DNA from: Aegilops tauschii subsp. strangulata
Lineage: Eukaryota > Streptophyta > Magnoliopsida > Poales > Poaceae
Length of the DNA: 64,000 nt
Assembly: GCF_002575655.3 (NCBI RefSeq)
Contig: NC_053040.3
Span: 151,219,148 to 151,283,147 of the forward strand
Reading direction: 5' to 3'
The notes beneath the pieces are model-generated. The model searched no databases and was not told the origin of the DNA. It was given only the letters and a program-made list of their open reading frames with translations. Positions within the stretch are counted from its first letter, which is position 1. Each line of letters opens with the position of its first letter. A program made the translations under genes and the position numbers. Positions 3,201-58,393 of the stretch are shown piece after piece.

Positions 3201-3254
3201 CGAAAACACTAACGCCCACACGTGTGGTCGTTAGCCAACTCAACCACACGCCTC
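3201..3254 (+). repeat. Left terminal inverted repeat of MULE (degenerate)
   Basis: Contains CCCACACGTGTGGT and CCACACGCCT. Matching reverse-complement text at the right end contains GCCATACGTGTGGT and CCGCACGCCT. The first 28 bases align without gaps, then one gap is needed. Confidence 0.55.
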
Positions 3255-3539
3255 CATCGCCGTTCAACAGTTTCTGCACGAATCTTGGCACGTTTGGCCT
3301 GATTTTGTGTGCCATGTAGGACAAGTCGCGTGTGTGGTGTGTGAGAGAGTTCGCCCACATGCCGGTTGCCTCTCCGCGGTCAACGGTTGCCACTCAGAGG
3401 CGTGCGGTGGAACTGCTCTGCGCCCGCACGCCACACCCGACTACGGTTGCCGTCAACCACGTCACGCACTTCAACCCCCTCCTCTCATGGTTCCATTTAC
3501 TCTCCACTTCATTACTCACCCAACCCAACCTGCAGTTCA

Positions 3540-3663
3540 TTCAATTGGAAGAGAAGGCGAGGGGAGAAGGCGACGGCAGAGGCGGAACAGTCGACGGCAT
3601 TCGCGACCGTCGGTGGGACTCGCCGGAGCAAAGCGTCTTCGTCGGAGTGCCTGCAGATTGAAG
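3540..3663 (+). other. Putative 5' untranslated exon of the MULE protease gene
   Basis: A purine-rich, GC-rich leader-like stretch ends in GATTGAAG|GTAATGC, a good splice donor at 3664. A plausible acceptor (pyrimidine-rich, CCTGAG|CACAATGG) lies at 12606, five bases before the protease start codon. This leader intron would contain the whole Gypsy insertion. Inference from splice signals; no transcript evidence. Confidence 0.35.
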
Positions 3664-3796
3664 GTAATGCTCCTTCCCACGCTCACATTCCTTGCCTGCA
3701 TTCTCCCCAATCCTCCGTGGTCAATGTTCCGCTCGAGATTCATAGAGATTCAGGCGGATTCGCGATGCTCCGGCGTTCCCGCCGGCGGCGGAGTCC

Positions 3797-5298
3797 TGAT
3801 AACCCACAAGTATAGGGGATCAACTGTAGCCTCTTTCGATAAGTAAGAGTGTCGAACCCAACGAGGAGCTAAAGGTAGAACAAATATTCCCTCAAGTTCT
3901 ATCGACCACCGATACAACTCTACGCACGCTTAACGTTCGCTTTACCTAAAACAAGTATGAAACTAGAAGTACTTTGTAGGTGTTTTTGGATAGGTTTGCA
4001 AGATAATAAAGAGCGCGTAAATAAAAAGTAGGGGCTGTTTAGATAAAGACACAATAAAGTAAATATAGCGAGTATGGAAAAGTGGTGTAGGAGTTGCGAA
4101 ATTGTCCCTAAGCAATTGACTACTTTACTAGACCGATAGCAAGTATTATGTGGGAGAGGCCACTGCTAGCATGTCATCCCTGACTTGGAATTCTATGCAC
4201 TTATGATTGGAACTATTAGCAAGCATCCACAACTACTAACGTTCATTAAGATAAAACCCAACCATAGCATTAAGTTATATTGGTCCCCCTTCAATCCCGT
4301 ATGCATCAATTTCTATGCTAGGTAGAAGCTTCTGTCACTCTTGCCCTCCAATACATAGTCCTATCAACATACAACTAACCCTATGGTGTGATCCACGCGC
4401 GCGCTCATATGATGGGCACCAAAGGACAGCAACATAACCACAAGCAAATTAAATCAATCATAGCAATTCATCAACCGCCGATAGGACAACGAAAAATCTA
4501 CTCGGACATCATAGGATGGCAACACATCATTGGATAATAATATGAATCATAAAGCACCATGTTCAAGTAGAGGGTACATCGGGTTGCGGGAGAGTGGACC
4601 GCTGTAGATAGAGGGGTTAGGTGATGGAGATGTTGGTGAAGATGGCGGAGGTGTTGGTGAAGATCGCGGTGATGATGATGATGGCCACGGCAGCGTTCTG
4701 GCGCCACCGGAAGAGAGGGGGAGAGGGGCCCCCTTCGTCTTCTTCTTCCTTGACATCCTCCCTAGATGGGAGAAGGGTTTCCCCTCTGATCCTTGGCCTC
4801 CATGGCACGGGAGGGGCGAGAGCCCCTCCGAGATTCGATCTGTCTCTCTGTCTCTCTCTGTTTCTGCGTTCTTGGTTCTGCCCTTTCACCGTTTCGTATA
4901 TATATGGAGATCCATAACTCCGATTGGATTGAAACCTTTGCCGAGATTTTTTTCTGAAAATTAGCTTTCTTACGGCCGAAGAATAGCAGCAACCGCCTTA
5001 CGAGGGGCCCACAAGGGGGGCAGGCGTGCCCCCCTCGGGCACCATCTCGCGTTGATTCTTCTTCCCATATTCTCCAAATATTCCAAAAATATTCTCCGTC
5101 CGTTTTTATCCCGTTTGGATTCCGTTTGATATGGGGTTTCTGCGAAACATAAAACATGCAACAAATAGGAACTGGCACTGGGCACTGGATCAATATGTTA
5201 GTCCCAAAAATAGTATAAAAAGTTGCCAAAAGTATATGAAAGTTGTATAATATTGGCATGGAACAATCAAAAATTATAGATACGACGGAGACATATCA
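3797..5298 (-). repeat. 3' LTR of the non-autonomous Gypsy element
   Basis: 1,502 bp, beginning TGATAACCCACAAGTATAGG on + and ending GACATATCA. Nearly identical to 9841-11359; the main difference is a 15-17 bp C-rich segment missing here near 5030. Confidence 0.9.
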
Positions 5299-5335
5299 GC
5301 ATCCCCAAGCTTAATTCCTGCTCGTCCTCGAGTAG
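5299..5335 (-). promoter_or_regulatory. Polypurine tract of the Gypsy element
   Basis: On the - strand the purine-rich AAGCTTGGGGATGC abuts the LTR start TGATATGTC, as in the left-edge element. Confidence 0.65.
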
Positions 5336-8300
5336 GTAAATGATAAAAAAGATAATTTTTGATGTGGAATGCTACCTAGCATAATCTTGACCATGTAATC
5401 TAATCATGGCATGAATATTAAGACACGAGTGATTCAAAGCAATAGTCTATCATTTGACATAAAAACAACAATACTTCAAGCCTACTAATAAAGCAATCAT
5501 GTCTTTTCAAAATAACATGGCCAAAGTAAGTTATCCCTACAAAATCATATAGTCTGGCTATGCTCCATCTTCACCACACAAAATATTCGAATCATGCACA
5601 ACCCCGATGACAAGCCAAGCAATTTTTTCATACTTTTGACGTTCTCAAACCTTTTCAACTTTCACGCAATACATGAGCGTGAGCCATGGACATAGCACTA
5701 TAGGTGGAATAGAATATGATGGTGGAGGTTGTGTGGAGAAGACAAAAAGGAGAAAGTCTCACATCGACGCGGCTAATCAACGGGCTATGGGGATGCCCAT
5801 CAATTGATGTCAATGTGAGGAGTAGGGATTTCCATGCAACGGATGCACTAAGAGCTATAAGTGTATGAAAGCTCAAACTGGAAACTAAGTGGGTGTGCAT
5901 CCAACTTGCTTGCTCATGAAGACCTCGGGCATTTGAGGAAGCCCATCATCGGAATATACAAGCCAAGTTCAATAATGAAAATTCCCACTAGTATATGAAA
6001 GTGATAACTCAAGAGACTCTCTATATGAAGAACATGGTGCTACTCTGAAGCACAAGTGTGGTAAAAGGATAGTAACATTGCCCCTTCTCTCTTTTTCTCT
6101 CATTTTTTTCTTTTTTTCTTTTTTTTCTTTTTTTGGTGGGCTTCTTTGGCCTCTTTTTTTTATTTGGGCTTCTTTGGCATCTTTTATTTTTTTGATAAAG
6201 TCCGGAGTCTCATCCCGACTTGTGGGGGAATCATAGTCTCCATCATCCTTTCCTCACTGGGGCAATGCTCTAATAATGATGATCATCACACTTTTATTTA
6301 CTTACAACTCAATATTACAACTCGATACTAGAACAAGGATATGACTCTATATGAATGCCTCTGGTAGTGTACCAGGATGTGCAATGATCTAGCATAGCAA
6401 TGACATCAAAAAACGGACAAACCATGAAAACATCATGCTAGCTATCTTACGATCATGCAAAGCAATATGACAATGATGCTCAAGTCATGTATATGATGAT
6501 GATGGAAGTTGCATGGCAATATATCTCGGAATGGCTATGGAAATGCCATGATAGGTAGGTATGGTGGCTGTTTTGAGGAAGATATAATGAGGTTTATGCG
6601 TGATAGAGCGTATCGTATCACGGGGTTTGGATGCACCGGCGAAGTTTGCACCAACTCTCGAGGTGAGAAAGGGCAATGCACGGTACCGAAGAGGCTAGCA
6701 ATGATGGAAGGGTGAGAGTGTGTATAATCCATGGACTCAACATTAGTCATAAAGAACTCACATACTTATTGCAAAAATCTATTAGTCATTGAAACAAAGT
6801 ACTACGCGCATGCTCCTAGGGGGATAGATTGGTAGGAAAAAACCATCGCTCGTCCCCGACCGCCACTCATAAGGAAGACAATCAATAAATAAATCATGCT
6901 CTGACTTCATCACATAACGGTTCACCATACGTGCATGCTACGGGAATCACAAACCTCAACACAAGTATTTCTACTAATCCACAACTACCCACTAGCATGA
7001 CTCTAATATCACCATCTTTATATCGCAAAACTATTGCAAGGAATCAAACATGTCATATTCAGTGATCTACAAGTTTTATGTAAGATTTTATGACTAACCA
7101 TGTGAATGACCGGTTCCTGTCATCTCTCTAAATAGATATAAGTGAAGCAAGAGAGTTTAGTTATTTCTACAAAATATATGCCCACGCTCTAACAAATATA
7201 AGTGAAGCAAAAGAGCATTCTACAAATGGCGGTTTTCTATGTGAAGAGAAACAGGCAATCCAAACTTCAAATGATATAAGTGAAGCACATGAAGCATTCT
7301 ATAAAGCCATACTCAAAAGATATAAGTGAAGTGCAAAGAGAATTCTATAAATCAACCAAGGACTATATCATACCAGCATGGTGCATAAAAGAAAAATAAA
7401 AACTAAATGCAAAAGACGCTCCAAGATTTGCACATATCGCATGAACGAAACAAATCCGAAAACATACCAATATTTGTTGAAGAAAGAGGGGATGCCTTCC
7501 GGGGCATCCCCAAGCTTAGACGCTTGAGTCTCCTTGAATATTTACTTGGAGTTCCTTGGGCATCCCCAAGCTTGAGCTCTTGCCTCTCTTTCTTCTTCTC
7601 ACATCGAGACCTTCTCGATCATCGAACACTTCATCCACACAAAACTTCAACAGAAAACTCGGTAAGATCCGTTAGTATAATAAAGCAAATCACTACTCTA
7701 AGTAATGTTGCAAACCAATTAATATTTTGTTTTTGCATTGTGTCTACTGTAGTATAACTTTTTCATGGCTTAATCCACTGATATAAATTGATAGTTTCAT
7801 CAAAACAAGCAAACTATGCATCAAAAACAGAATCTGTCTAAAACAGAACAGTCTGTAATAATCTGAACATTCACCATACTTCTGATACTTGAAAAACTCT
7901 GCCAAAATTATGAAAAATAAAAAATTTGTAAAGAAATACAGTGCAAAAAGAATCAGAACCGTTTGACGTTCCAGTAAAAAACTAAAAATCGCGCACTACA
8001 GCCAAAGTTTCTGTCCTGCACCGCACAAACCAACAAGCATTGTAAACATCCTAAAGGCAAACCTTGGCACATTATTTTTATAATACAATGGAATTGTACA
8101 AGGGGATAATTATTTTTCTTGAAAAGTTTCTGTAATTAAGATTCACAAAGTTTCTATGGGCATGAACAAAGTTCAAGGACGTCCCCCACTTTCACAATGC
8201 TCGTCTATCTCACATTTCACTTTTCTTTTTGAAAAGTTTTGGGTTCCCCTCTTTATTTTTTTGTTTTTAAACTATATAAAAGCACTCAAAAGAAATAAAT

Positions 8301-8372
8301 GACTCTCTAAAACTTCCGGGTTGTCTCCCTGGCAGCGCTTTCTTTAAAGCCATTAAGCTAGGCATATAGTGC
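5336..8372 (-). mobile_element. Non-coding internal region of the Gypsy element
   Basis: No protein-coding frame was recognised. It contains a T-rich tract (6090-6190), four loose copies of a ~60-bp unit with ATATAAGTGAAGCA and ATTCTA (7130-7350), and paired GCATCCCCAAGCTTA motifs (about 7500-7580). The same units occur in opposite orientation in the right-edge element (61790-62950). Confidence 0.7.
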
Positions 8373-9716
8373 TCAAGTAATGGATCCACCCAGATCCCAA
8401 AGTATATCAAAGCCAATTTTAATTAGCAATGATTTGAAATTTAGTAGTGAGCATAAAGTAACATATATCATGTAATGACGAAGTCTAACTCTCTTCCTAT
8501 GCATCGGCATGTCATAAAAGAACAATTCATGCACACATAGTAAAGGCCAATGCATAGTATAAACAATTTCTTGCAATTTTTTCGTGTTGGAAACATAAAG
8601 AGGAGGAGATGTAGTTCCTCTCTCATAATAATTGCAAGTAGGAGAAGCAAGCACATGCATATTATACTCATAAAAATCATCATGTGTAGTAGTAAAAGGC
8701 AACCCATCAATATAATCCTTAATAAGCACAAACTTCTCCGATATAGTGTAGTCGGGAGAATTCAAAAAGATAATAGGACTATCATGTGTGGGTGCAATCG
8801 CAACAATTTCATGTTTAACATAAGGAACTATAGCAAGTTCATCTCCATAAGCATCATTCATATTGGCATCTTGGCCACAAGCATAGCAAGCATCATCAAA
8901 AAGGGATATTTCAAAAGAATCAACGGGATCATAACAATCATCATAGCATTCATCCTTCGGTAAGCACGAAGGGAAATTAAACAATGTATGAGTTGAAGAG
9001 TTACTCTTATTAGAAGGTGGGCATGGGTAGCTAATCCGCTCTTCCTCCTTTTGTTCTTCGCTCTCCTCATCATCTTTTTCATCCAATGAGCTCCCAGTTT
9101 CATCAATTTCTTCTTCCATAGACTCCTGCAAAATATTAGTCTCTTCTTGGACAGCGGAGACTTTCTCAATAAATGCATCAATATCGGCATTGTATTCATA
9201 ATTCTCATAGCAATATTTAAGGATAGCTAAATTTTCAGGTCTATAAACAGCATCATAAAGATTTTCAAACTCTTTGAACATAGATTCAATTTCATAAGCA
9301 CCCATAAAAGCAACAAATTCTTCTATTTGTTCCACATCATAGTAATCATATATACCTTTAGCATAAGAAGCCAAGGTTTCATTATCAATAAATTCGCATG
9401 AAAAGGGAAGGTGTGGAGCCTTCATCCTAGAGCAACAAGTATAATCATATCTCAAGCATAGTTGCCTAGCATACCAATTCAATATATGAATTTGATCCCA
9501 TAATAGTTTCCCTTTTTGAGTCAAGCGATAAACCCTAAAGTATTCACGTTGATCCAATGTGTCTCCCATTACATAATTGAATGGGGTTTTCTCAGGATTA
9601 TCAAAGTAGTACATAATATCTTTCACATAACGAGCATCGAGGGTTTTAGGAGGTTCCCCATCTCCATGAGTAGCAAGTACACCTAATTTTTTTGGTATTT
9701 CGTGTTCCATATCCAT
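8373..9716 (-). CDS. 447-aa protein of unknown function in a non-autonomous Gypsy element
   Basis: A single open frame starts at ATG 9716, 90-120 bp inside the primer-binding site. It occupies the place where gag normally lies. The first ~200 residues are rich in aromatic and acidic residues (MDMEHEIPKKLGVLATHGDG, then WDQIHILNWYARQL). The middle (about 200-235) is a run of Glu/Asp (DEKDDEESEEQKEEE). The rest has scattered Cys and Tyr. No zinc knuckle, protease, RT or integrase motif was seen. The same type of protein recurs in Triticeae non-autonomous Gypsy elements, but I know of no assigned function. The frame is intact, which agrees with the close similarity of the two LTRs. Confidence 0.75.
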   Translation of the reverse strand: MDMEHEIPKKLGVLATHGDGEPPKTLDARYVKDIMYYFDNPEKTPFNYVMGDTLDQREYFRVYRLTQKGKLLWDQIHILNWYARQLCLRYDYTCCSRMKAPHLPFSCEFIDNETLASYAKGIYDYYDVEQIEEFVAFMGAYEIESMFKEFENLYDAVYRPENLAILKYCYENYEYNADIDAFIEKVSAVQEETNILQESMEEEIDETGSSLDEKDDEESEEQKEEERISYPCPPSNKSNSSTHTLFNFPSCLPKDECYDDCYDPVDSFEISLFDDACYACGQDANMNDAYGDELAIVPYVKHEIVAIAPTHDSPIIFLNSPDYTISEKFVLIKDYIDGLPFTTTHDDFYEYNMHVLASPTCNYYERGTTSPPLYVSNTKKLQEIVYTMHWPLLCVHELFFYDMPMHRKRVRLRHYMIYVTLCSLLNFKSLLIKIGFDILWDLGGSIT

Positions 9717-9807
9717 AACTAAAGATAGAGAACAACTAAGAACAGCAAATAAAAATTACTTAGTGATAAAGCAAACAAGCACACACAAGAATATTCACCC
9801 CACGCTA

Positions 9808-9831
9808 TTGCTCCCCGGCAATGGCGCCAGA
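9808..9831 (-). promoter_or_regulatory. Primer-binding site of the Gypsy element
   Basis: On the - strand CTGGCGCCATTGCCGGGGAG follows the 5' LTR by about ten bases. A near-identical segment with CTTTGCC occurs at 60946-60965 beside the right-edge LTR. This is the usual tRNA-primer region of these Triticeae Gypsy elements. Confidence 0.7.
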
Positions 9832-9840
9832 AAAAGGTCT

Positions 9841-11359
9841 TGATAACCCACAAGTATAGGGGATCAATTTTAGCCTCTTTCGATAAGTAAGAGTGTCGAA
9901 CCCAACGAGGAGCTAAAGGTAGAACAAATATTCCCTCAAGTTCTATCGACCACCGATACAACTCTACGCACGCTTAACGTTCGCTTTACCTAGAACAAGA
10001 ATGAAACTAGAAGTACTTTGTAGGTGTTTTTGGATAGGTTTGCAAGATAATAAAGAGCGCGTAAATAAAAAGTAGGGGCTGTTTAGATAAAGACACAATA
10101 AAGTAAATATAGCGAGTATGGAAAAGTGGTGGTAGGAGTTGCGAAATTGTCCCTAAGCAATTGACTACTTTATTAGACCGATACCAAGTATTATGTGGGA
10201 GAGGCCACTGCTAGCATGTCATCCCTGACTTGGAATTCTATGCACTTATGATTGGAACTATTAGCAAGCATCCGCAACTACTAACGTTCATTAAGATAAA
10301 ACCCAACCATAGCATTAAGTTATATTGGTCCCCCTTCAATCCCGTATGCATCAATTTCTATGCTAGGTAGAAGCTTCTGTCACTCTTGCCCTCCAATACA
10401 TAGTCCTATCAACATACAACTAACCCTATGGTGTGATCCACACGCGCGCTCATATGATGGGCACCAAAGGACAGCAACATAACCACAAGCAAATTAAATC
10501 AATCATAGCAATTCATCAACCGCCGATAGGACAACGAAAAATCTACTCAGACATCAGAGGATGGCAACACATCATTCGATAATAATATGAAGCATAAAGC
10601 ACCATGTTCAAGTAGAGGGTACAACGGGTTGCGGGAGAGTGGACCGCTGTAGATAGAGGGGGGGGTAGGTGATGGAGATGTTGGTGAAGATAGCGGAGGT
10701 GTTGGTGAAGATCGCGGTGATGATGATGATGGCCACGGCAGCGTTCCGGCGCCACCGGAAGAGAGGGGGAGAGGGGCCCCCTTCTTCTTCTTCTTCCTTG
10801 ACCTCCTCCCTAGATGGGAGAAGGGTTTCCCCTCTGGTCCTTGGCCTCCATGGCATGGGAGGGGCGAGAGCCCCTCCGAGATTGGATCTGTCTCTCTGTC
10901 TCTCTCTGCTTCTGCGTTCTTGGTTCTGCCCTTTCACCGTTCGTATATATATGGAGATCCGTAAGTCCGATTGGATTGAAACCTTCGCCGAGATTTTTTC
11001 TGAAAATTAGCTTTCTTGCGGCCGAAGAATAGCAGCAACCACCTTACGAGGGGCCCACGAGGGGGGCAGGCGCGCCCCCCTGCCTCGTGCCCCCCTCGGG
11101 CACCGTCTCGCGTTGATTCTTCTTCCCATATTCTCCTAATATTCCAAAAATATTCTCCGTCCGTTTTTATCCCGTGTGGATTCCGTTTGATATGGGGTTT
11201 CTGTGAAACATAAAACATGCAACAAACAGGAACTGGCACTGGGCACTGGATCAATATGTTAGTCCCAAAAATAGTATAAAAAGTTGCCAAAAGTATATTA
11301 AAGTTGTATAATATTGGCATGGAACAATCAAAAATTATAGATACGACGGAGACGTATCA
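9841..11359 (-). repeat. 5' LTR of the non-autonomous Gypsy element
   Basis: 1,519 bp with TGATA...TATCA ends. A TATATATA box on the - strand near 10945-10952 would serve as its promoter. It is longer than the 3' LTR because of a 15-17 bp C-rich segment near 11080. Confidence 0.9.
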
Positions 11360-11611
11360 AGTCATGTGCTTGCCGTTTTGGGTGGCATTGCGCAGTTTCG
11401 TCGCCGCCGCGGTGGCTGTCATGACGGTGTGACTCGGCCTGTCCGCAGCCACATCCTGGTTCTGCCTTGGGATTGAGCCGACGTTTTTCTAGTCGTCAGT
11501 TTATGTATTGTCTTGAAATGCTTTTTGCGATTAGTGCAGGAAGTTTTTGTTGATGAATTTCAGGTTATGATAGTTGCCAATGAACCCTAGATCTAGATAG
11601 TTGTATTTCAC

Positions 11612-12110
11612 AGTGTAGTATGAAGGTAGTCATGGCAGTTTCAGTAACTATCTGCACTGGATGGCAACTATTTTCCTGATCAACTGTGTCATTTGCCACA
11701 ACTATGTTTTCCATGTGGCAACTATTTTTGTGAACACACTCTTGCTGTTGCCATGCTGTAGGCATGATAAAGTGTAGTATATAGGTAGTCATGGCAGTTT
11801 CAGCAACTTTGTGCACTGGATGGCAACTAATTTCCTGATCAACTGTTTTAATTGCCACAAATATGCTTTCCATGTGGCAAGTATTTCTGTGAACACACTA
11901 TGGTTGTTGCCATGCTATAGACAGGATAATGTGGCAAATTCACTCTACTATAGACTCAATTTTTGTGTTTTGCCATGGTGACTTGTGATATCTGAACATA
12001 TTTTGGCTGCCTTACATTGCCATGATGTAGACAGGATAATGTGGCAAATTCACTGTACTATAGACTCAATTTTATGTTTTGCCATGGTGACTTGTGATAT
12101 GTGAACATAT
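11612..12110 (+). repeat. Nested tandem duplications in the MULE leader
   Basis: A ~159-bp unit starting AGTGTAGTAT recurs (11612 and 11771). A ~110-bp unit starting ACAGGATAATGTGGCAAATT recurs (11921 and 12031). Both contain TGGCAA/TTGCCA motifs on both strands, unlike the one-strand phased clusters further right. 11360-11610, just right of the Gypsy insertion, shows no feature beyond continuing MULE leader. Confidence 0.75.
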
Positions 12111-13630
12111 TTGGCCGTATTACATGGCAACTCATTTTTAATATGAGGTTAGTGTGTGAATTGCCACATTGCAGGTTGTTCAGTGGATTTTTCAGCACAT
12201 TTTGAATTTTCTTGCATTTTAACATGGCAATTTCAACATAGTACATTTGCCTTCGAACATATGGCAACTCATTTTTGTATGAGGACAGGGTGTGAGTTGC
12301 CACATTATATGTTTGTGCAGTGGAAGATTTGTGCCTTTCTTTTGTACTATCTTGTGCTAACATGGCAACTTCAACATTTTGTTTTAAATGCCCTACTATC
12401 TGTACATTTTTCAAATGAAGCCAACGTGTTTAGTTGCCACATTTCCTGTTGGACAATCATAGGGGGTGTGGGTGTTCATATGATATTACCTGATCTTTTT
12501 TGCCACTTTCAATTGAGCCCATGTGGCAAGTACATTCTGTCAGGTGGCAACTGATTACTTCATACTTTCATTTCCACCCTGACATTTTGCTTTGTTCTTA
12601 CCTGAGCACAATGGCTCGCGGCGATCATCAAGATGATGATGATGAGTTCATGGAGTTACCGCAGCAGAATCGCGCAACTGGACGGACAAAAGACGGCGAT
12701 GAGGTAACTGTCCACCCCCCCCCCCCTCCCCCCATATGTTTTGAATGTCACATTGAGTTTGCAATCGTCTGTTACGAACTAAATTTTCATGATAGTGAAA
12801 CATGGCAACAAATGATCATTTGTCTGTTTTGCAGAAGAAGAAATGTAATCACAATAGGGCTTCACAGGAACGCCTGACTATATTGACCGATGGATTTACC
12901 GACGACCAGAAGGGAGCTGCTGCTGAGATGGGGATGCAGGCTCTGATGGATGTTCGGTGCAAGAATCTAGTGAACCCTGTATGTGACTGGCTCGATGAGA
13001 TTTACGAGCCCGCCTCCAGGGAATTTGTGATTCCGGGATGTGGAAGACTGCCATTGGACGAGGAATCCGTGTTCGGCACTTTGGGTGTGCCCCGTGGAGA
13101 AATCAAAGTCCCGTATGAGGTCAATAATAAGATTGAGGAAATGTTGTTTGCCCGTTTGTTTCCTGGGACGGCAACCATGCCGAACATGACTGTGTTGGCA
13201 AATTCGCTGCAGGCCATGACAACCCATGGCGAGGTTTTTAAGATGAAGCTACTCATGTACCTGATCTCAGTTGTTTTTGCGCCGACCACATCTCTTCGCC
13301 CAAGCAACAAATGCTTCCCCATCCTGGTGAATGATCTATCTCTACTCCTTTATTTCCTTCAATCTTTTTACTCCGATGTCATCTGTAAGCTAGTCACTGC
13401 CAGTTATTTTGATGTTTTTCCATTTGATTTCCGATGCGGCAACTTCTTGTCCTGAAATTTGTGTCGTGCAGGCAAAACTGAAAGATGTGAAGAACATGAA
13501 TTGGTGTAAGTTCATTGCGGACTTCCTGCATGATGCATTCTCAAACAAGATGTACCAGAAGGGTTGTCGACTCCATTTAATGGTATTTTTTTACTACCCC
13601 TTTGCAAACACTCTTAGCACCTTGAGTATG

Positions 13631-13735
13631 CATGGCAACCATGATGGTGATATTATGGCAACTACCATCATAACAAGATGGCAACTGCCAGCACAACATG
13701 ATGGCAACTAGCACATATAGATGGCAACTCTTTCT
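13631..13735 (+). repeat. 23-nt-phased CATGGCAACT cluster, protease intron 3
   Basis: The T of the TGGCAA core falls at 13633, 13656, 13679 and 13702 (steps of exactly 23), then 13722 (step 20). Confidence 0.9.
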
Positions 13736-15384
13736 TTCTTTCATGCCCTTTAACTTGATGTTTGAAGGAACATACATTAGCTTATTTTTCAACATAGCAT
13801 GATGGCAACTGACATATTTTCCTTTTTTATTGTGTACACCAGCTCATGTACGTCGATCGTCTTGATCTGTCCACCGTTGACTTTACTGGGGTAGGAGGTC
13901 GGCCACCTCCACATAAGTTTGATGTCTCTGCGTGGACGTACGGTGCTGTCAAAGCTGTGCTTGCCGCAAACAAGATAACTGATACTAAATATGGGAAACT
14001 GCAGGTTAGTTCTGGCTTCTTTCTTTACACGACATTCTTTCAATTTTGTTGCTACATAACATATGAAAAAATCCCCATACGGCAACCGCCTGTGGCTAAC
14101 AAGAGATGACTACCTTGTTAGCCATGGATGTCTGCGCATGGTATCCATGTCTTACGCCACATGGCAACTCCGCCATCCATGTTGAAACTTCTATCCTCTT
14201 CCTCTTACTTTTTTCAATACATGAACTGTTAGTTAGTGTTCATTATTTTCTCTCTTACAACCTAGCTGTTTTTTGTTATTTCCAGCTGATGGCCAAGCAT
14301 GCTATAGACTACAGCGTGTTTGGTGGGCCTCAAAACTTTGGGAAGTGGATGGACGTGCACTCAGCTCCATCTTGTCCTGCAGAGGTAATCAAGGATATAT
14401 ATCTATGGTTGTGTTTGGTTTATTTGATCTTGTGCACGTGACTCTAATATGGTTGGTTACTGCTGCTTCTTGTTTCGTGCACAGGCGAGGGCATCTGTTG
14501 AGCATCTAATTGGGCAGTTTGTATCCGGAATGACCAGCTTGCTCGGGAAGTTAGTTGAGGGTTGGACGACCCTTAATGGCTCTGACAGCGACGCGGTTGC
14601 GAGGCAGTTCACTCCATTTGTTGCAGAACGGACACATCGGCCAACTGGTTGCCGTGGTCGGTACGACTACAACAGCTCGCAGGAGCTTCCTGACACACAA
14701 GATGAACTAGATGGAGATGCTGTTCTCGACAAGGATGATGACGATGACATGGAGAACGTGCAACACGACACCGACGATGATGAACATGTTGAAGTTCGTG
14801 CATGTGGTAAGAAGGGCAAGGTTGCACCAGATGTCCCCTCACCGGAGAAAGTCAAAAACATACAGCTGCGAGAGGCAAGGGGGTGTCGCCCTCAAAGAGG
14901 GGGAGGGATCCAGAGGATGTTGGGCAGGACTCTCCTGGCAAGAGGTCTAGGACCGATCCCTTAGCTTCTAGGAGGAGGTTCGACTTCTATTTTAGTGTTT
15001 TGTTTTGTCTCTCCTTTTGAATAGACTGGCCCTTTTTTCCATTTTTTCTGCTAAGCGTGGCAACGATTTTCGTGTCTGACACTTGGCACCTTTTTTGCCA
15101 CTTTTCTTATACGTGCAGTGAGGCAACAGCTGGTGGACGAGCAGTTACAAAGAAACAAGCACCAACGCCAACCCGTGTTTCTGCTCAATTGAACAAGGGT
15201 GCCCCCATTGCTGGTGACACCCCTTCCACCAGGTCATCTCCTCGTACGACGACGTCCAACCCCGGGGATCCTGTCATGTTGCCAGACTTGAGGAAGACTG
15301 TCAAGAAGTAGGTTATCCCTGTTCCTTCATTGCCATAGTGCTATATTTTTGCTTTTCAATGCAGCTGTTCAGCTTGCCACATGG

Positions 15385-15800
15385 GCAACAGCCATCAGTC
15401 CCACATGGCAACTGTTGTTTTTCCAATGATCTCTTTCTTTTTACTGCGTGGCAACTCCTGCTTGTTTTGCATGGCAACTGCTATCTAGGCCAAATGGCAA
15501 CTCTTATTCCACCTACATGGCAACTACCAGCTTTCCATTGGCTTGTGTGCTCATCCATATCTAGTTTTGAAATTGCAGCCCTGGCACATCAGACATTTTT
15601 TTCATTTTTCAAGATGGCTACCATGGCAACTCCTGCTTGTTCTGCATGGCAACTGCTAACTAGGCCACATGGCAACTCTTATTCTACCTGCATGGCAACT
15701 ACCAGCCTTCCATTGGCTTGTGTGCTCATCCATACCTAGTTTTGAAATGGCAGCCCTGGCACATCACACATTTTTTTCATTTTTTAAGATGGCTACCATG
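15385..15800 (+). repeat. Two 23-nt-phased CATGGCAACT clusters in a 175-bp tandem duplication, protease intron 7
   Basis: Cores at 15449, 15472, 15495, 15518 and again at 15624, 15647, 15670, 15693. The whole block of about 175 bp is duplicated, including the text after the cluster (GGCTTGTGTGCTCATCCATA). Confidence 0.9.
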
Positions 15801-17224
15801 GCAAATATTTTTTGTTCATTTTTCAATACTTTTCATGTGCTTTTTCTTTGCAGGGTGAAGAAGACTACTACACGCGTGACCAAGCAGAACATTAGAGACC
15901 CACTCGAACGCCTTCATTCAAAGTTGTCGACACGTGGCAACTCAGACGTTCATGAGGTGCCAGTCGGCAAAACTGCTGCTACAGCGTCAACTGTTCCCAC
16001 TAGCTCTGATGCAAGCGGTCGACCATCTCCGCCGATTGCAGATGTGCAGGCTACAACAACAGGCATCCGTACATCTGGGAGTGACGAGTCGGTATCTGCC
16101 AGGACTGCTGAAATATTGCCCACTCTGCTGGCAATGAAGGATGCTGCTGTGAGCCATGCCACCCGATCAGCAAGTGTTGAAGTGGACGCCCCCGAGATCA
16201 ACCTAAGCAAGGAAGATTCCCGCTCATCTGAGACGGATTCCAAGCGCGTGGGTGGTGGCACTTCTGCGTCCATGAAAAAAGGGGCTGAGGCGACAGTCCA
16301 TAATGATATGCCATCCACAGGTGAGAGTCTTGGCACAACAGCTCCAGCTTCTGGTGGTCCAGAGGTTGCTAAGGCGACCGTTTCACGAACTGGCCTTCCA
16401 CCTAGGCGTTGTAGCCCCCGCAAGCAATCAGCACACATACCCAACGCACCGGCTGTAGCTAGGAGCAATAGAGATGACTCTGGTTATGTGCCTGCGTCCA
16501 CGCTGTTCCCATCACCTGCCAAAATCAATGTTATGGAGAAAACGGAAGACCGGAGTACAACTGCCCAGGTGGCAAGCCGGGCAGGACTGACGGAGGTGAA
16601 CGTCCGGAGCGGACTGCGTCTTTACCCGTCGTGGAGAACCCCAGCTTAAATCTATGCACTTCTAAGCTCCCAGTCAATGTTGGTGTCCCCTACAGCCCAA
16701 ACAAGAAGATTGTCAACAAAGTTGCGACTGATACCGCTGACAACACGCCCCGCCCTACGAATAAGCCCGATGATTCTGTAGCGGCCGATGCAGAAATGTT
16801 TGTTGATCTTTCACCCTTGGATTCTGCCCAGCAAGTTGTTCGCGGTTCGGCCAGTAGGCAGGAGAGGCACCCAATGGCCTTCACCCCATCGAGCTTTAGC
16901 CTTGGCATTAGTCAAGATCAACCAGTGGTGCAAGATCCTACGCCAGTTGCCTTTGCTTTCCCGGCAGGCATGGCCGCAATGATGGCGCAGCCAATGGTCG
17001 AGGGCAGGAAGGCTGTGAAGTTCGCAGAGCCGATTGTGCAAGGTACATTTCTTCTGCGTTTATCATTTTCTTGTATACATCTTTTTAGTCTGACTTTTGT
17101 CCCAAGAATTTTTTTTGGGTTCTCACTTGTGATGGCAAATGTTATCTAATGGATATGGCAACTGGATTTGTTGCACATTGTCACCTACATTTTTGTTGCC
17201 ATGTTGCATTTTCCATTCGGCAAG

Positions 17225-17335
17225 TACATGGCAACTGTAGTTGGTACAACATGGCAACTGTAGTTGTTGTCACATGGCAACTACAATGCACTACACATGC
17301 CAACTGGAGTTGCCTCCACATGGCAACTCCCTACG
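17225..17335 (+). repeat. 23-nt-phased CATGGCAACT cluster, protease intron 8
   Basis: Five cores at 17227, 17250, 17273, 17296 and 17319 (C of CATGG/CATGC), all exactly 23 apart. The 13 bases between cores differ from unit to unit. Confidence 0.92.
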
Positions 17336-19151
17336 TTTTCTACCTACATTTCATATTCTGCACCCTTTCTTTCACACTAAACTTGTTTTGTTTTCCAAGT
17401 ATCCTAACCCACTTTTTTGATCCTTGTAGCCACCCCTGAGGAGATTACGCCGTCACTTGATGAAGCTTACCGCAGGATTGAGGAGACAGCATTGCAGAGG
17501 AGGTCCTCACGAGGTCAGGGGCAATCAAGTTCTAACGTGCCTGCTGAGACGGTATCTGAGGATACCATTAGAAGTGCCACCCCTAGTTCTGTGAGGCAGC
17601 ATAGGGTAGTTCACGCACCATCCGCGGATGATTACGAGCCAGAAGTCAAGGCCACAAAGGATCAGAACCAGCTGTACGATATTGTCAAGTGCTTTGGAAA
17701 TGTGAGGTCCAACAGCAAGCACATGAAGGAACTGAAAGCGTAATGACCACACCACATAACCTCTCATTTGCGTTGCTCTTTTTACTATTCCTCCATTTGC
17801 TATTTCTAGATATGCTCCGTTCACATTTTATTTCTTTCTTTTTTACTTAGTATACATGATTCTTTCATGTTATATCATTTTCATACAGCTCATGTTTGGA
17901 CAGAACCAAGATCATACAATGCGATGCGACGTACGTTGACCTGGGTGATCTTGCCGAGTCTGTGAGGCCACTCGGTAAAATGTCGAAGAATGTAGTTGCA
18001 TGTGGGATTGACTTCATCAACAGGCATATGGATATGTCTCCCGACAAAACAATCATGCAGTACAGTGTGACCTGCAAAATATGGGATGGTGACTTCCACC
18101 ACAAAATCCCGAGGAAGCATTTTCCTGCGCATGGTGATTTCAAGCTCACAATGAAGAAATGTGTGAGTACTCCTTCCTATTTTGCACATTTTCCTCCCAT
18201 GGTATGTTTTTGCAAGTAGCTATGCTTCACATGTGGGCTACACCCTGTTTTGTGACAGCTGTTTCATGTGGCAACAGCTGCCATGTAAAATGACTTTCGA
18301 TTTGCTTCTTACTATAACCTATGTGGCTCAAACTAAAATACAGGGAAACTTTGTTCATACATGGATGGCAACTTCTTTTAATTACCCACTATAACTAAAC
18401 ATTTCTATGTGGGTTTACTTTTTGGACCCTTGCTGCTTTATGTCACTCATGTGCCTCTTAGTGCAACCGGTGATATCTTTTACACGTCATTTTCCCAATT
18501 ACATCATTTCTGTTCTCCATGTGAACTCTGCTCCTTCTTTCCTTCATTTTACTTGCAGGTCTTGTTCCCCATGTTCCAGGAGCTTGCACCACACGACCCA
18601 CATGACAAGTGTGGTCACCACTACGCGATCTGCCTTGACCTGAAGAACCAACGTATTGAGGTGCTTGATTCAATGCGTTCAGAAGCTGATGCAGACCTTA
18701 CTACGCGTGTTGAATACTTCATCAACAACCTCAAAGAGACATGGAACCGTCACTACAAAAACTCAAAGGTCCAGATCAGACATTTTCCAATTGAGTATGT
18801 GGCGACTATGAAGCAAGGAAACCGGTATTTTCCCATCTTTTCTTCATGTGTCCTATACACCAATGCTAACCCTGTTGTCACCTTTGAATTGAAGTTTATG
18901 ATTTTTCTCTCTGTTCTTGTGAGTTCACCTGATTCTTTTCTTGTTTTAGGCACGACTGCGGCTTTCACATGTTGGAATACCTTGCAAAGTGGGAAGGTCG
19001 ACGGGTTCCTGTCGTCACAGCTGCAATGGTCGTCGAGCTCCGCAAAATTTACACATGTAACTTGTTGATGAATGAAGATTTCAACACGCGGTCCAACGCA
19101 CGTGAGTTCATAGAGGAAGTTGTCAAGAAAGCCACCAAGAAGTACAAGTGA

Positions 19152-19694
19152 TCACGTCGTGCTCCATACCGAACGCCTACCTTACATTCTGTTGCCGAGG
19201 AATGTAAGGTATTACCTTTGTTCTTTTCAAAACTATGTCCGTGTACTATGTTATGGCTGCATCTCCGCGTAGCCTAGTATGTAGTGGTGTTTGTGTGAGC
19301 GACATTTGAACATTTTCTGTAATATATGTGTGGATGTGAACCTAATTAGGTGTGACAGCAGATACGTTTATGTTTTTCAGTATTATTATGCGTTCATCGT
19401 TGGTAGTACCAGTTTGGTGTTTCGAATGCGTCTACGATGTTTGAAAACATGGCAAATGTAGTTCATCAGACACAGTTAGTGAAAATTATCGTCCTTTTTC
19501 ATTTGTCTGTTTGGTTCTTTTTTTTCATTGCTAACTGTACTGGCTAGCATGGTAGTTTGATCACGCGGCCGTAACCTGTGCGGTTGCTCCACGTGACCGT
19601 TTCAACTTGTTTCCCATAGTTTGCACACAATACAATATGTGTGACTAAAATGCGCTGATTGAACACGGAAATCTACGCGATGCACACTCAGTAG
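19152..19694. other. Intergenic 3' flank between convergent MULE genes
   Basis: Follows the protease stop codon. T-rich, with scattered TGGCAAA text; no reading frame or recognised element. Probably holds the protease 3' untranslated region. Confidence 0.5.
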
Positions 19695-19924
19695 AACTAA
19701 CATGGCATTTTCAGTACAACTAACATGGCAGATTCAATACAAATAACATGGCAGATTCAATACAAATAACAGGGCAGATTCAGTATAAATAACATGGCAA
19801 ATTCAGTAGAAATGGCATGGCAGATTCAGTAGAAACGGCATGGAAGATTCAGTTGAAGTAACATGGCAAATTTAGTACCATACACATGGCAACTGTAGTT
19901 ATTCATCCATGGCAATTTCCTTCA
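19695..19924 (+). repeat. 23-bp tandem repeat array between the MULE genes
   Basis: Eight full units of 23 bp (19695-19878, exactly 184 bp) with consensus AACTAACATGGCAGATTCAG plus TAC, followed by two more in-phase cores. The T of the core falls at 19703 and every 23 bases to 19910, ten in a row. Confidence 0.93.
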
Positions 19925-20849
19925 AATTCTGATGCCCATCAAGAGTCATTCTCCCATTTTTAAAAATTTAGAACATCTAGATTACAAAAAAAGGTCACCA
20001 AGGACCAAGTCACGGTGCTCCAATGTTGCTTACGGATTGCCTGTCCCTTTCTTAGTTTTCTTGTGTTTTGCTTGAATCTCCAATCCCGATTTGTATCTTA
20101 TCTCTTTTGGACGCCCCTTTGTGATGGAACGGGGCGGGTTCCTGACCTGGGTTTGTGTGCTTGCTGTTCCAGATCCTACCTCCGAGTTTTCAGATGATGG
20201 CCCCGTGGACGAAGGCACACTTGATGTGCGGGGGAACCTGTGTAAGGCTTCCTCAGCTTTCCTCTTCTTGATCTCATCAAGCTCTCTTTTCAGAGCCTTC
20301 CTGTGTTTTTCTACGACCCTCGTTGTCTCATCACTCTTGCATGCTTCATCAATTAGTTCAGCATAGTTCTTTGTCAACACAACGTGCCTCATGGCTTTCA
20401 TGGTTGACTCTGGTCTCTTGTCATGCACAGCCAAAACTGCATTTGATGTTTGCGGCGCCAATGCGTCGTCAGCGTCCCAAGTCCATCACCGCCGTATGAA
20501 ATGGCGGGGCATTCGTGTCACCGCGTTCATGTCCATTACTTTTAGTATGTGTCAGCACACAATCCCGTCCCGTTTGAATTTGCAGCATTGGCAGTAGTAT
20601 TCGCCTTCGCTTATCGAGGCCTTCACAAAGTAGTTCCTTCCCTTGTCCGGGTCTTCAGGTTCTGAATCCGACATGCCCAAGATAGAACACACCTTGAACG
20701 TATGTTTGTCCACCTGGAAAGCCGTGTACATGCTGGCACGCTTTATTTCTTCCTGGAATCTGCAAGTTTTGTGTGGTTTTGTTAAACTCTTGTGTGATGT
20801 TTTTTGTAGCACCTTATGTTGTTGTGGCCAATGGAAGTACAGTTCGTTT

Positions 20850-21180
20850 AAACATGGCAACTACAGTTCATTAAACATGGCAACTGCAGTTGAGTAAACA
20901 TGGCAACTTCAGTTCATTAAACATGGCAACTGCAGTTCATTAAACATGGCAACTGTAATTCATTAAACATGGCAATTTGCATAACATCTTTAATTGGAAT
21001 TTGCATTTCCATACCATCATGGCCAATGGAAGTACAGTTCATTAAACATGGCAACTACAGTTCATCAAACATGGCAACTGCAGTTGAGTAAATATGGCAA
21101 CTGCAGTTGAGTAAACATGGCAACTGTACTTCATTAAACATGGCAAACTGTAGTTCATTAAACATGGCAACTACATATCA
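20850..21180 (+). repeat. Two long 23-nt-phased CATGGCAACT clusters, transposase intron 4
   Basis: Cores at 20855, 20878, 20901, 20924, 20947, 20970 (six) and 21049, 21072, 21095, 21118, 21141 (five), then 21165 (step 24). Typical unit ATTAAACATGGCAACTGCAG plus TTC. The two clusters are themselves copies about 194 bp apart, each preceded by GGCCAATGGAAGTACAGTTC. Confidence 0.92.
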
Positions 21181-23159
21181 TGGTTACTCTGTACTCAATG
21201 GCTACTTTTCAACAAATCATCATTTTCAAATAAGCTTTTCAACTGCATTGCATTCTACATGGCACCTACTACCTTCATGCTTGTGCAAATAAGATTGTAA
21301 CACAACTGACTTACTTGTTAAAAATCTTGTTGGTGTATATCTTGCTCATCTGCCTCTCCATCGGTAAATACGTTAGCAATTTTGGCTGCTTGAGCGCGGT
21401 GTTTGCTTCTTGCTGTAGCTCAGATCCCAGTATTTTTTGTTGCAAAGCGGTGTATTGCTTGGCAAACTGTAGCAATGAGTTGTCAGGGCTCACGTACCGC
21501 TTCAAAATAGCATTGAACCCCTCGCTGCGCTGCGTAGTCTGCAGAAACGGGAAGAAGCACTACATGAAGTAGGTCGGCACCCAATACATTCGCTTCTCCC
21601 ACAGGCTAGCAAGCGTCTCGTTGTCTTGGACTTGATATGTTTCAATCATAGCCATCCAGCTCCTTTCAAACTCCTCCACCGTCAAGCTGTGGTCCACACA
21701 CAACTCGAATGCCTTGTGCAGCTCTGGACAGTCAGCAAAGAACGGTCCTAGCGTCTCCTCGGCCTTCTTTATAATGTGCCACCTGCAGTGCCTGTGCACT
21801 GTCAACGGAAAGACCTCCTCTATTCCTACACGCATGCTAAAATCATGGTCTGTTATTATGTTCATCGGAGCAAGTCCACCCATGCACTCCAAGAAGGTCT
21901 TGAACATCCAAGTGTACCCATCCGTGTCTTCGTTCCGAACGAGCCCACATCCGAACTGCAATGACTGATTGTGGTTATTTAATCCTATGAATGGAGCGCA
22001 TGGCATCTTGTACATATTAGTGAGATATGTCGCGTCGAATGAAATGCAATCTCGGAAATGTTTGTAGGCTCTTCTTGCAGCACCATCCACCCAATACATG
22101 TTCCTGACACGGTCCTCATCGTCCAATCTTATCATGTAGAAGAAATCTGGATCTCCCTTCGCTTTCTCATCGAAGTAGGCTATCGTGGCTTCTATGTCAG
22201 CCAACTTGCTCTCTCTACGGTACTTTGCCTTTAGGTTTGTGACGTCTGCTGGTATGTAAGGCATGCTACTCAGAGTCCCATTTTTGCTGTGGATGAGGGA
22301 TAGTATCTGGACCATTCTTGATGGACTGACGTTACAATCATGTAGCAGCTTTATGAATTTCTTCTCGAGGGGGGTGAATCCTCTGTGGGCGGTCAGAAAT
22401 TTTACCAGGTCAAACTTCTTTATGAGTTCGTGGTTGTGCTCGTCAAAATATTCAGTGACCACCCACCGTGCTCCATCTACGTTCAGCTTACACCGGACAG
22501 GACATTCCGTCTTGACAATGATACCTCTCTTTCGTTCCGGAACGACAGGCGCAACACCTTTACCCTTCTTGTTCTTTCGTGCCTTGTAGCACATCATCTC
22601 ACCTCTGCTGTACTCATTAGTTTTATTTATTTTCCTATGGTATTCGGTGTTAACCGTAAACCCATGGAACTTTGCATATGTCTGGTAGAACTCCTTTGCG
22701 TCTTCGAATGAATCAAATCTCTGCCCAACGTACGGTGGCTGAGGTACCATGATTTCTGATTGCCCACCATCTTCATCCCCTTGTGCTTCGTCATCAGTTT
22801 CATCATTCACTTCAGTATCGGCGGCTGTTTCATCTGCTTGAGTGTTGCTTGTGCTGGTGTTCAAAGGTGTGCTTGTCGGCATTGCTGGAACGATTGCCAT
22901 TTCCGACATTGACTCGGCATTGTTTGTGGCATGATTGTTGGCTGGCTGGTGGAACGCGTCTTTCGTGCGCTCAGAGCTCCCCGCAGTAGATGTCCCCGTG
23001 CCGCTGTTGATTGTAGTTGAAGGTCCTGCAATTAAAAAACAGGTACGAGCGTAAGATTTTGCTTGAATGGCATGTTTATTGTAACGGAGTACAGCAACTG
23101 CATGTGATTTGGCATGACATCATTCACACATTAAGCCGTGAGTCTGCATATGGCCATGC

Positions 23160-23335
23160 ATGGCAACTATAGTTCTCCAGTCATGGCAGCTACAGTCCAA
23201 CAAACATGGCAACTACTGTTGCCAATGCATGGCAACCACCTTCTTTCAGTACCAAAACTTGGATTCTATAGCCATGGCAGCTACAGTCCAACATACATGG
23301 CAACCACTGCTGCCAATACATGGCAACCAGTTTAT
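23160..23335 (+). repeat. 23-nt-phased clusters, transposase intron 3 (first group)
   Basis: Cores at 23161, 23184, 23207, 23230 and, after a gap of 45, at 23275, 23298, 23321. Confidence 0.9.
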
Positions 23336-23719
23336 TCTAGCATCGAAACTTGTATTCTAGGCTTGAGCTCACTAGGCAAATGCGATCAATCATGAATGTT
23401 GCACACACTCTTATAGCAATTGGCAAATCCCGAAGACAATATATGACTCTTTGCACACGACCACTTGGTAGCATTTTTTGTTTGTTTTTTCCACCACCAC
23501 CGTTACAAATCTACTTTTCCTCACATGCTATTCCCACAAAAGCAAACGCAGTACTGCTTTCTGGTTCACATTTTTACCTTGTTGTGCCGCATGTGCCGAT
23601 GTTGTGTGGTCTGTCATCCCAATTTGATGTGCTCTATCTGCAATAACGTTGTCCTGCAACTGTGAAGCTTGCCATGAGACGTTTCCACCGTAACAACCTG
23701 TGATCATGGTAGCAGTTGG

Positions 23720-23905
23720 TCATTGCATGGCAACTGTAGTTTGTTCAGCATGGCACATGTAGTGGTCCAACCATGCCACACATGTTTGTTCACACTTGTC
23801 ATCCACGGTTGTTTAGATAGTGCAATCACATTTGATTATACATGGCAACTGCAGTTGTCCAGGCATGGCAACTGCAGCTGTCCAGGCATGGCAACTGCAG
23901 GTGTT
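23720..23905 (+). repeat. 23-nt-phased clusters, transposase intron 3 (second group)
   Basis: Cores at 23728, 23751, 23774 and at 23843, 23866, 23889. The second trio is nearly uniform (CATGGCAACTGCAG followed by TGTCCAGG). Confidence 0.9.
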
Positions 23906-24457
23906 AGATATGTTCCTTTCTCCTAACTCACTGTCCACAACTTCACTTCATACACTCACCTGTGTACGACGTTGATGGCAGATACATGGTTGCTGCCTGA
24001 TGCCACGTGATGCATGAAGGTCCTACATTTTTTCCGACGTAACTCGTGAGTCTTTTGCCATCCTTGCAAGTTTAATTTCATGTCCACAACACTAAGTTTC
24101 TTTTTCGTATGCGTTACCTTGATTTGCCACATTAGTTAGCTGAAGTTGGTTGCCCGTACATTTGTCAGCGTTAGCGCCCTGTGACTGAACTTGCCATGCT
24201 GCCCCCCTGATTGTGGTTTGGTCATAAGAACCTGCTAAAAATTAGATTGTAGGACATAAGTAGATGACATCTTCATCGTCACGAACATGGCAACTGTTTC
24301 TTTTTTGTTTATCATGCATCGTACCGATGCCCACGTAGTGCTCTAGTAGTGGCAGCAAGGGCCCTGCAGAAATGAGTTGATTGTACTCTGCTGCATCCCA
24401 AGGTGGCGTTTCCGGCCTTTGAGAAAGCCAAGGATCATTGCCATCTTCGTGATTCAT

Positions 24458-25289
24458 TCTTCTACTTTTTTTTCTGCCACTGTGTTTTCAGTCACTGCAT
24501 GAACAAGAACGCATCAACAATCCGCAAAAAGGCATTCTTGCTGTTTGCACGTAGAAGATAACACGGCAATCTTATCACATTTCTTGCGTAAGCAACCAAC
24601 ACATCATGGCAAGTAGGACATGCACATTCATTCTCTTTTTTCTGAATTCTGGATGCCAGCTATCACTTTGAAGCGATGGCAACAGACAATAAAATAGGAT
24701 GGCAAGCAACAAGATAACACGGTGGCAACTAAGGACAACGATAGATGGCAACTGTTGTTACATACAAGTGGCAATTATTTTTCCTCTCTTCCTTTGCCAA
24801 ATTTCTCATTTCCCTCCCTATTTCTAGTGACTCCTACGCATCCTTCCTTACCAACTACTCGCACATACCCAACCCAGAAGCTTAGCTTAACTCTAGCACA
24901 GTACATGGCAAATCTGGTGTATGTTGGTGGGCAAACGTGAATACACACAAATCTGTAGGGTGTTTGCACTGATAGCGTGGATCCAGTCGCCATATATTGT
25001 GGGCAAATTTGCAATTTCAAATTTCTGCGCAGAAGAAGGACGAGAAACAGAAGGAAATCGGAGATCCACCTGTTTTTTAGCTCATAGGGGATCGAGAGGT
25101 GGGAGACGATGGCGGCAGGTCGGACTGGGGATCGAAAGAAGGCCGGGACGGCTGGAGTGCTGGGTCGTGCGGGCAGCGCGGTCGTTTGGCCCGGACGTGT
25201 GGGCAGTTTTGCCACACACCGGACGTGCGGGCTGTGGCTGCGCGCACCCGGACGCGGTCGTGCGGGCGGGTTTTTCTTCATGCCACACA
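24458..25289 (-). promoter_or_regulatory. Upstream region of the MULE transposase gene
   Basis: Presumed promoter region of the - strand transposase. It includes a phased CATGGCAACT cluster at 24670-24780 (cores 24677, 24700, 24723, 24746, 24769). Beyond 25090 it becomes GC-rich with repeated CCCGCACG/CCACACG text that resembles the sub-terminal sequence of the left end. No clear TATA box was chosen. Confidence 0.5.
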
Positions 25290-25343
25290 AGGCGTGCGGC
25301 ACAACCACCCGATACACCACACGTATGGCAGTTATCGGCGTCC
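25290..25343 (-). repeat. Right terminal inverted repeat of MULE (degenerate)
   Basis: The inverted partner of 3201-3254; see the element entry. Followed by the TAAAAATA duplication at 25344-25351. Confidence 0.55.
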
Positions 25344-25351
25344 TAAAAATA

Positions 25352-58250: not shown

Positions 58251-58290
58251 ATCAAGAATATGTATTTCAGCGGACCCTTTTTAAAATGTA

Positions 58291-58393
58291 CTCCATCCGT
58301 TCGGAATTACTTGTCATAGAAATGGATGTATCTAGACGTATTTTAGTTCTAGATACATCCATTTTCGAGACAAGTAATTCCGAACGGAGGAAG
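58291..58393. mobile_element. Stowaway MITE (103 bp)
   Basis: CTCCATCCGTTCGGAATTAC and its inverted partner GTAATTCCGAACGGAGGAAG, flanked by TA at 58289-58290 and 58394-58395. The interior repeats AGATACATCCATT. Confidence 0.93.

Follow-up and report, generated by a model that had tools for sequence, protein, structure and literature searches.

VANC21 of the Arabidopsis transposon VANDAL21 binds the motif YAGTATTAY in noncoding DNA (Hosaka 2017, PMC5735166). Many of its motifs lie in one orientation, tandem repeats of them have been gained and lost, and sites are found upstream of VANA as well as inside VANC and VANB introns (PMC5735166). A review also describes VANC genes that encode a Ulp1 domain (PMC13317346). 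We describe a transposon of similar layout in a 64,000-nt stretch of Aegilops tauschii subsp. strangulata (GCF_002575655.3, NC_053040.3:151,219,148-151,283,147, forward strand), referred to as the window. It is a 14.6-kb FAR1-type Mutator-like element (MULE) flanked by 8-bp target duplications; its termini are degenerate, and its two genes, gene 1 (Ulp1 type) and the transposase gene, converge. Its noncoding DNA holds arrays of a short core repeated at 23-nt steps. We give about even chances to the reading that these arrays serve as multimer binding sites for a protein that the element encodes, probably the gene 1 product, acting in a VANC-like anti-silencing system within a FAR1-type MULE.

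Like VANDAL21 and VANC21, the window element has a short, dense noncoding motif in one main orientation, tandem repeats with turnover of units, and an accessory gene beside a MULE transposase, with sites in the accessory-gene introns and upstream of the transposase; degenerate termini are a further likeness to VANDAL (PMC10398659). Compared from sequence alone, it differs in its motif, its strict 23-nt step, its FAR1-type transposase, its lack of detected DUF1985 or DUF287 and its grass host. The likeness to VANC would lie in the mode of working, and the transposase type together with the lack of detected DUF1985/DUF287 appears to set the element outside VANDAL/VANC.

An N-terminal FAR1 domain is recorded for group 36, to which Jittery belongs, but not for VANDAL (PMC6446971). 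The Jittery-like (FAR1) MULEs of that group share with the window element the N-terminal FAR1 domain, the MULE domain and the 8-bp duplication, whereas the window element has a second gene and internal arrays; its inverted repeat is degenerate and only about 27 bp long, and the group is given repeats of 39-292 bp or none (PMC6446971). KAONASHI and ULP-bearing MULEs (Arabidopsis, melon, rice, grapevine) likewise carry a Ulp1 protease gene, often opposite to the transposase, although motif arrays are absent from the descriptions compared (PMC2528002). Grapevine and melon have Jittery-like MULEs for which a Ulp1 gene has also been reported (PMC2528002), so the pairing of transposase and Ulp1 gene is not new. 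The Abermu MULEs of barley and other plants resemble the window element as large Triticeae MULEs with a fast-evolving antisense open reading frame (ORF) of unknown function, but are closer to MuDR and have inverted repeats of 138-145 bp (PMC9168764); the terms "tandem repeat" and "subterminal" are absent from that text. In the open-licence literature, covered mostly at the level of listings, we found no description of the motif and none of VANC-like arrays from grasses. Nor do the passages compared mention constrained arrays phased at 23 nt.

Results

A first-pass annotation of the window had listed 12 clusters in which TGGCAA recurs at 23-nt steps. All 12 were found at the positions given, cluster 17227-17319 being numbered from the CA of the word and the others from its TG. 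Its count of about 56 phased copies holds for register, with 56 positions in 23-nt phase, but an exact TGGCAA stands at 45 of these and at least five of the six bases match at 53; cluster 19703-19910 is the most degenerate (4 of 10 exact). In the whole element minus its nested retrotransposon (14,578 bp) we counted 65 cores with at most one mismatch, whereas 300 dinucleotide shuffles averaged 0.91 and never exceeded 4. Core pairs exactly 23 nt apart numbered 30, and the shuffles gave 0 (maximum 0). The spacing spectrum was dominated by 23 nt (30 pairs) and 46 nt (20 pairs), with at most two pairs at every other distance from 11 to 59 nt. A strong orientation bias was also seen, exact CATGGCAACT occurring 31 times on the plus strand of the window and never on the minus strand. 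Across the 4.1-Gb genome, the exact phased pair occurred 812 + 857 times, against 0 + 0 for a reversed control pattern.

As first noted, the arrays are essentially absent from exons: only 3 of the 65 cores fall within them in our approximate exon model, and one of these (20853) lies on an ORF boundary, where an array starts. All of the arrays are on the plus strand. Their placement in gene 1 introns and between the genes was correct. The introns of gene 1 hold four units at 13633..13707, two 4-unit arrays inside a 175-bp duplication at 15449..15698, and five units, one of them TGCCAA, at 17227..17328; ten units, mostly degenerate (4 exact), lie between the two genes at 19703..19915. The transposase side, described earlier as intronic and upstream, resolves into seven clusters, two between the transposase ORFs (six units at 20853..20975 and five at 21047..21146) and five 5' of its ORF (4 + 3 units within a 91-bp duplication at 23159..23326, 3 + 3 units, with one exact in the first three, at 23726..23894, and five units at 24677..24774). 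Solitary cores in both orientations were found at 11.6-12.6 kb of the window. Arrays are embedded in duplications of 159, 175 and 91 bp, and unit numbers rise and fall between element copies.

In order to measure conservation, we anchored 12 further copies to the window, of which six extend over 9.4-13.7 kb and the other six are partial (4.1-7.7 kb). Divergence across these full-type copies was 0.069 in cores, 0.130 in other noncoding DNA and 0.076 in exons, and 0.065, 0.053 and 0.106 at transposase codon positions 1, 2 and 3. The cores of full-type copies are kept almost as strictly as the protein code. Core divergence was below non-core divergence in all eight noncoding segments, and random CG-free 10-mers of similar GC content diverged by 0.124 (99.9% band 0.0985-0.150). 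The core/flank ratio was 0.40 for all cores with at most one mismatch (confidence interval [CI] 0.33-0.48, n = 62). Solitary cores, defined as having no second TGGCAA or TTGCCA within 60 nt in the window, were used as a test because they are less exposed to array misalignment, and gave a ratio of 0.44 (CI 0.27-0.62, n = 12). The reverse 10-mer with at most two mismatches gave 0.51 (0.32-0.76, n = 15). An earlier multiple alignment of the window and six copies, with E62 excluded and some copies trimmed, served for phased-unit, shuffled-core and gap-free tests; in the gap-free test, solitary CATGGCAACT with one mismatch gave a ratio of 0.27 (0.09-0.77), and rows in which gaps had been scored as differences were left aside.

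We then considered when the substitutions arose, taking singletons as mostly postdating insertion and shared polymorphisms as arising in source lineages (12 copies and the window, sites with at least seven rows). The ratio of shared to singleton polymorphism was 0.40 in cores, against 0.64 for other noncoding DNA and 0.82 for core flanks; transposase positions 1, 2 and 3 gave 0.45, 0.39 and 0.74. Cores thus resemble nonsynonymous sites in their depletion of shared polymorphism. For cores versus other noncoding DNA, the odds ratio was 0.47 at shared sites (p = 1.8e-7) and 0.77 at singleton sites (p = 0.016); sites are not independent, and both p values are indicative. The constraint on the core proposed at first annotation is supported in full-type copies by overall divergence, by solitary cores and by shared polymorphism.

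A search with the transposase, blind to the motif, gave at least 95 matches (94 of 4783 candidates scored), marking this as a high-copy MULE family. On contig C1 there were seven matches below 245 Mb, which were compared with phased pairs, and four beyond that range. For all seven, an exact phased pair is found no more than 2.2 kb away, although only 0.15% of C1 below 245 Mb is as close as 5 kb to any pair. Among the matches listed, locus L039 has the lowest identity (70%); it was chosen without reference to the motif, and 1.9 kb on its 5' side was examined. At this single locus TGGCAA occurs 20 times forward and TTGCCA once, 12 of the 20 extend to TGGCAACA, and the steps include eight of 23 nt and three of 24 nt; the cores have the same orientation to the transposase as in the window element. 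Noncoding DNA of L039 gave no blastn match to the window element (word 7, E 1e-3), and ATGGCAAC is kept at 23/24 nt with new spacers. In L039, word and step persist; spacers do not. The first-pass annotation had held that loss of phase from other copies, or equal divergence of core and spacer, would mark the arrays as ordinary minisatellites; other copies keep the 23-nt phase, and the two rates differ in full-type copies but agree in six gene-less ones.

Pair clusters on C1 below 245 Mb numbered 26, of which 22 were fetched, and every one of the 22 shows family sequence. Thirteen match the window element at length. Six belong to a 0.9-kb family. Both termini, together with a duplication of 7-8 bp, were recognized in its members L002 (8 of 9 positions) and L027 (TAAAAACT), whereas the ends of L003 and L025 could not be placed. 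No target duplication was found for L001. A second type, about 1 kb long, is represented by L029, where both ends are visible, and L030, where only the left one is. The third type, L028, consists of two oppositely oriented arms, and its ends match with mismatches. The four remaining clusters, near 13 Mb, share the same spacers. The gene-less relatives were found through the motif, and arrays in every gene-less copy are therefore not implied. In L002, L027, L029 and L030, most copies of TGGCAA fall at positions 286 to 740, and a second motif, CCACACG/CGTGTGG, occurs in both orientations mostly before about 270 and after about 670, with an exception at 440 in L002.

Three further observations concern these loci. 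In L028 (C1:73680000-73689999, reverse strand, about 4881-5700) the ends are nearly symmetric, with a TTGCCA array in one arm and a TGGCAA array in the other, at 23-24 nt or multiples. Five pair clusters at C1:13.10-13.80 Mb have the same internal layout, which suggests a duplicated chromosomal segment carrying one element copy. L011 carries two copies, at 4008-5798 and 6249-8544, of the element's right end (window about 23695-25347).

The boundaries of the window element were read from other copies, seven of which align at about 83-93% over long stretches. The arrays do lie within one transposon, as first annotated, but the extent then given (13631-24780) was too small: the element spans 3201-25343, with a retrotransposon nested at 3795-11359. 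Its left end (3201..3794, plus strand), which begins CGAAAACACTAACGCCCACACGTGTGG directly after the target duplication TAAAAATA, is aligned in other copies. The nested long terminal repeat (LTR) retrotransposon (3795..11359, no strand assigned), flanked by AGTCC/AGTCA, is skipped in four of them, E56, E133, E13 and E117 passing from window 3795-3798 straight to 11360. The main part (11360..25343, plus strand) ends in CCACACGTATGGCAGTTATCGGCGTCC, followed by TAAAAATA. Both ends carry the palindrome CCACACGTGTGG, with one mismatch at the right end of the window copy, plus a weak outer match only, so the inverted repeat of about 27 bp is weak.

Gene 1 (12611..19152, plus strand) was read from splice signals and frames and has a C-terminal Peptidase_C48/Ulp1 domain (Pfam PF02902, 2.1e-8). 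Its 5' noncoding region (11612..12600, plus strand) contains the solitary cores of both orientations and the 159-bp duplication. The approximate exons are 12611-12703, 12835-13326, 13472-13582, 13843-14004, 14286-14384 and 14485-14870 (exons 1 to 6) and 15120-15308, 15856-17044, 17431-17742, 17890-18162, 18560-18827 and 18951-19152 (exons 7 to 12), with apparent frame changes in the window copy near 14870 and 16570. Among 7991 scored candidates, 70 gene 1 homologues, named Triticum or Hordeum, were found. With a cutoff of E 1, Peptidase_C48 was detected in 15 of 22 homologues (lowest E 2.8e-6) and is the only recurrent Pfam domain, other weak matches being confined to single members. A structure model of a homologue was poor (mean predicted local distance difference test score 43), and a PDB sequence search gave one irrelevant match (E 0.96). 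The transposase (21560..22909, minus strand) has FAR1 DNA-binding and MULE transposase domains (Pfam PF03101, 1.9e-10, and PF10551, 4.8e-28); ORFs at 21311-21559 and 20552-20860 on the same strand are putative later exons.

Discussion

The conserved word, dominant orientation, fixed step, occurrence in full and gene-less members and turnover of units make docking sites for a trans-acting protein the best explanation of the arrays. They may be cis-acting binding sites maintained by selection on lineages of transposing elements, with ATGGCAAC(T/A) as the putative recognition word. Tandem duplication at the 23-nt repeat length would multiply the units, allowing several protein molecules to dock side by side across the noncoding DNA of the element. 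The likeliest binder would be the Ulp1-type product of gene 1, acting in trans on full and gene-less members; like VANC, it could load onto noncoding DNA and remove silencing marks, so that the transposase gene may be expressed. Multimer sites for a transposon-encoded protein, as first annotated, thus remain the best inference, but the FAR1-like transposase proposed there as binder seems less likely than the gene 1 product because four short relatives carry the separate motif CCACACG/CGTGTGG in their outer parts and the TGGCAA arrays in the middle. Since terminal and internal motifs differ, we would assign the terminal motif to the transposase and the internal one to gene 1. A chromatin or replication signal, the other possibility named at first annotation, received neither support nor contradiction.

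Several results weigh against this reading. The 12 copies used for conservation all come from contig C1 and were listed for holding at least one exact phased pair. The reverse hexamer TTGCCA was not clearly constrained (ratio 0.73, CI 0.38-1.14, n = 24), and in the gap-free test solitary TGGCAAC was not significant (0.57, CI 0.26-1.11). Shuffled-core controls, with a median of 26 instances each, were noisy, the real divergence being reached by 38 of 300 and the real core/flank ratio by 8 of 300. A composition-matched 7-mer control gave a ratio of 0.49; we regard this control as void, since shifted cores could be among its 10 words. In gene 1, codon constraint was found in most ordered exons but neither in the disordered exon 8 (1.36) nor in exon 5 (0.94). 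DUF1985 and DUF287 were not detected by Pfam in N- and C-terminal pieces of the window gene (to E 5) or in 22 homologues (to E 1), and by domain content the transposase is of FAR1 and not VANDAL type. Finally, the pattern of a kept core and a drifting spacer, borne out in full-type copies, is lost in six gene-less copies, where cores diverged by 0.128 and flanks by 0.116 (38 instances, omitting the pair by which each copy was found). Such equal decay fits neutral decay of dead copies and lends no support to cis selection there.

Three technical or mutational sources of core conservation were considered. Array misregistration, to which the first phased-unit test was open, was tested with solitary cores and gap-free blocks. 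A mutational cold spot is disfavored because core and flank diverge alike in the six gene-less copies. Gene conversion of the core alone would be improbable for a 10-bp tract with unrelated spacers.

The arrays could instead be sites for the FAR1-type transposase, aiding its assembly on, or finding of, element DNA, and we regard this as unlikely. FAR1 is a DNA-binding domain, and the gene-less relatives, found via the motif, pair termini with arrays, as a requirement for transposition would predict. TnpA binds subterminal repeats of CACTA elements, which offers a parallel. However, the arrays are spread through 14 kb and not gathered near the ends, and it is the different outer motif of the four short elements that flanks their arrays.

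Host transcription, splicing or chromatin factors might also read the word, making the arrays enhancers or intronic regulators of both genes. Their position in introns and 5' regions of both genes and their dominant orientation would suit such a role. Nevertheless, in the inspected clusters (22 of 22 fetched, of 26) the phased word occurs only in this MULE family, and gene-less elements carry arrays too, so that we find control by host factors improbable.

We attach very little probability to a basis in small-RNA biology, in which the arrays would feed or attract RNA-directed DNA methylation and units of small interfering RNA (siRNA) length would let each siRNA match every unit. A 23-nt step is common to three different repeats in the window, and tandem repeats can be siRNA sources and targets of RNA-directed DNA methylation (PMC10398659), but this would bring the element no benefit that could keep a short core intact in solitary copies as the spacers vary. 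An ordinary, functionless minisatellite, its core common by descent only, is scarcely credible and was rejected for full-type copies: unit numbers do vary between copies, arrays do lie inside the 159-, 175- and 91-bp duplications, and core and flank do diverge alike in the gene-less copies, but full-type cores are constrained, including solitary cores and shared polymorphisms, and L039 keeps core and phase without spacer homology.

If the gene 1 product does read the arrays, transposon-encoded, sequence-specific anti-silencing would extend to another MULE clade and to cereals. A word and its protein would also be at hand for studying how the specificity of such proteins shifts, possibly along with a tool for targeted demethylation. 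Even without anti-silencing, noncoding transposon DNA conserved nearly as well as the protein code of its element is unusual and readily testable. A bolder version, which we consider rather doubtful, is that a FAR1-type grass MULE evolved, independently of VANDAL, sequence-specific anti-silencing read on a 23-nt ruler, and that several unrelated Triticeae repeat families share the spacing, the word serving as family identity tag (ATGGCAACT, TTGAACTTC, GAGAG[TG]CACGG).

Other repeats were observed elsewhere in the window. A second repeat region at 54660-58718 has the one-orientation word TTGAACTTC, with 28 forward matches (at most one mismatch) and 9 of 27 successive steps of 22 or 23 nt. A third array, at 36782-37317, shows GAGAG[TG]CACG(G) at 23-nt steps in five super-repeats of about 110 bp, mostly in one orientation. 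Between 27263 and 32731, two direct 300-bp repeats, 98% alike and 5169 apart, possibly belong to another LTR-type element.

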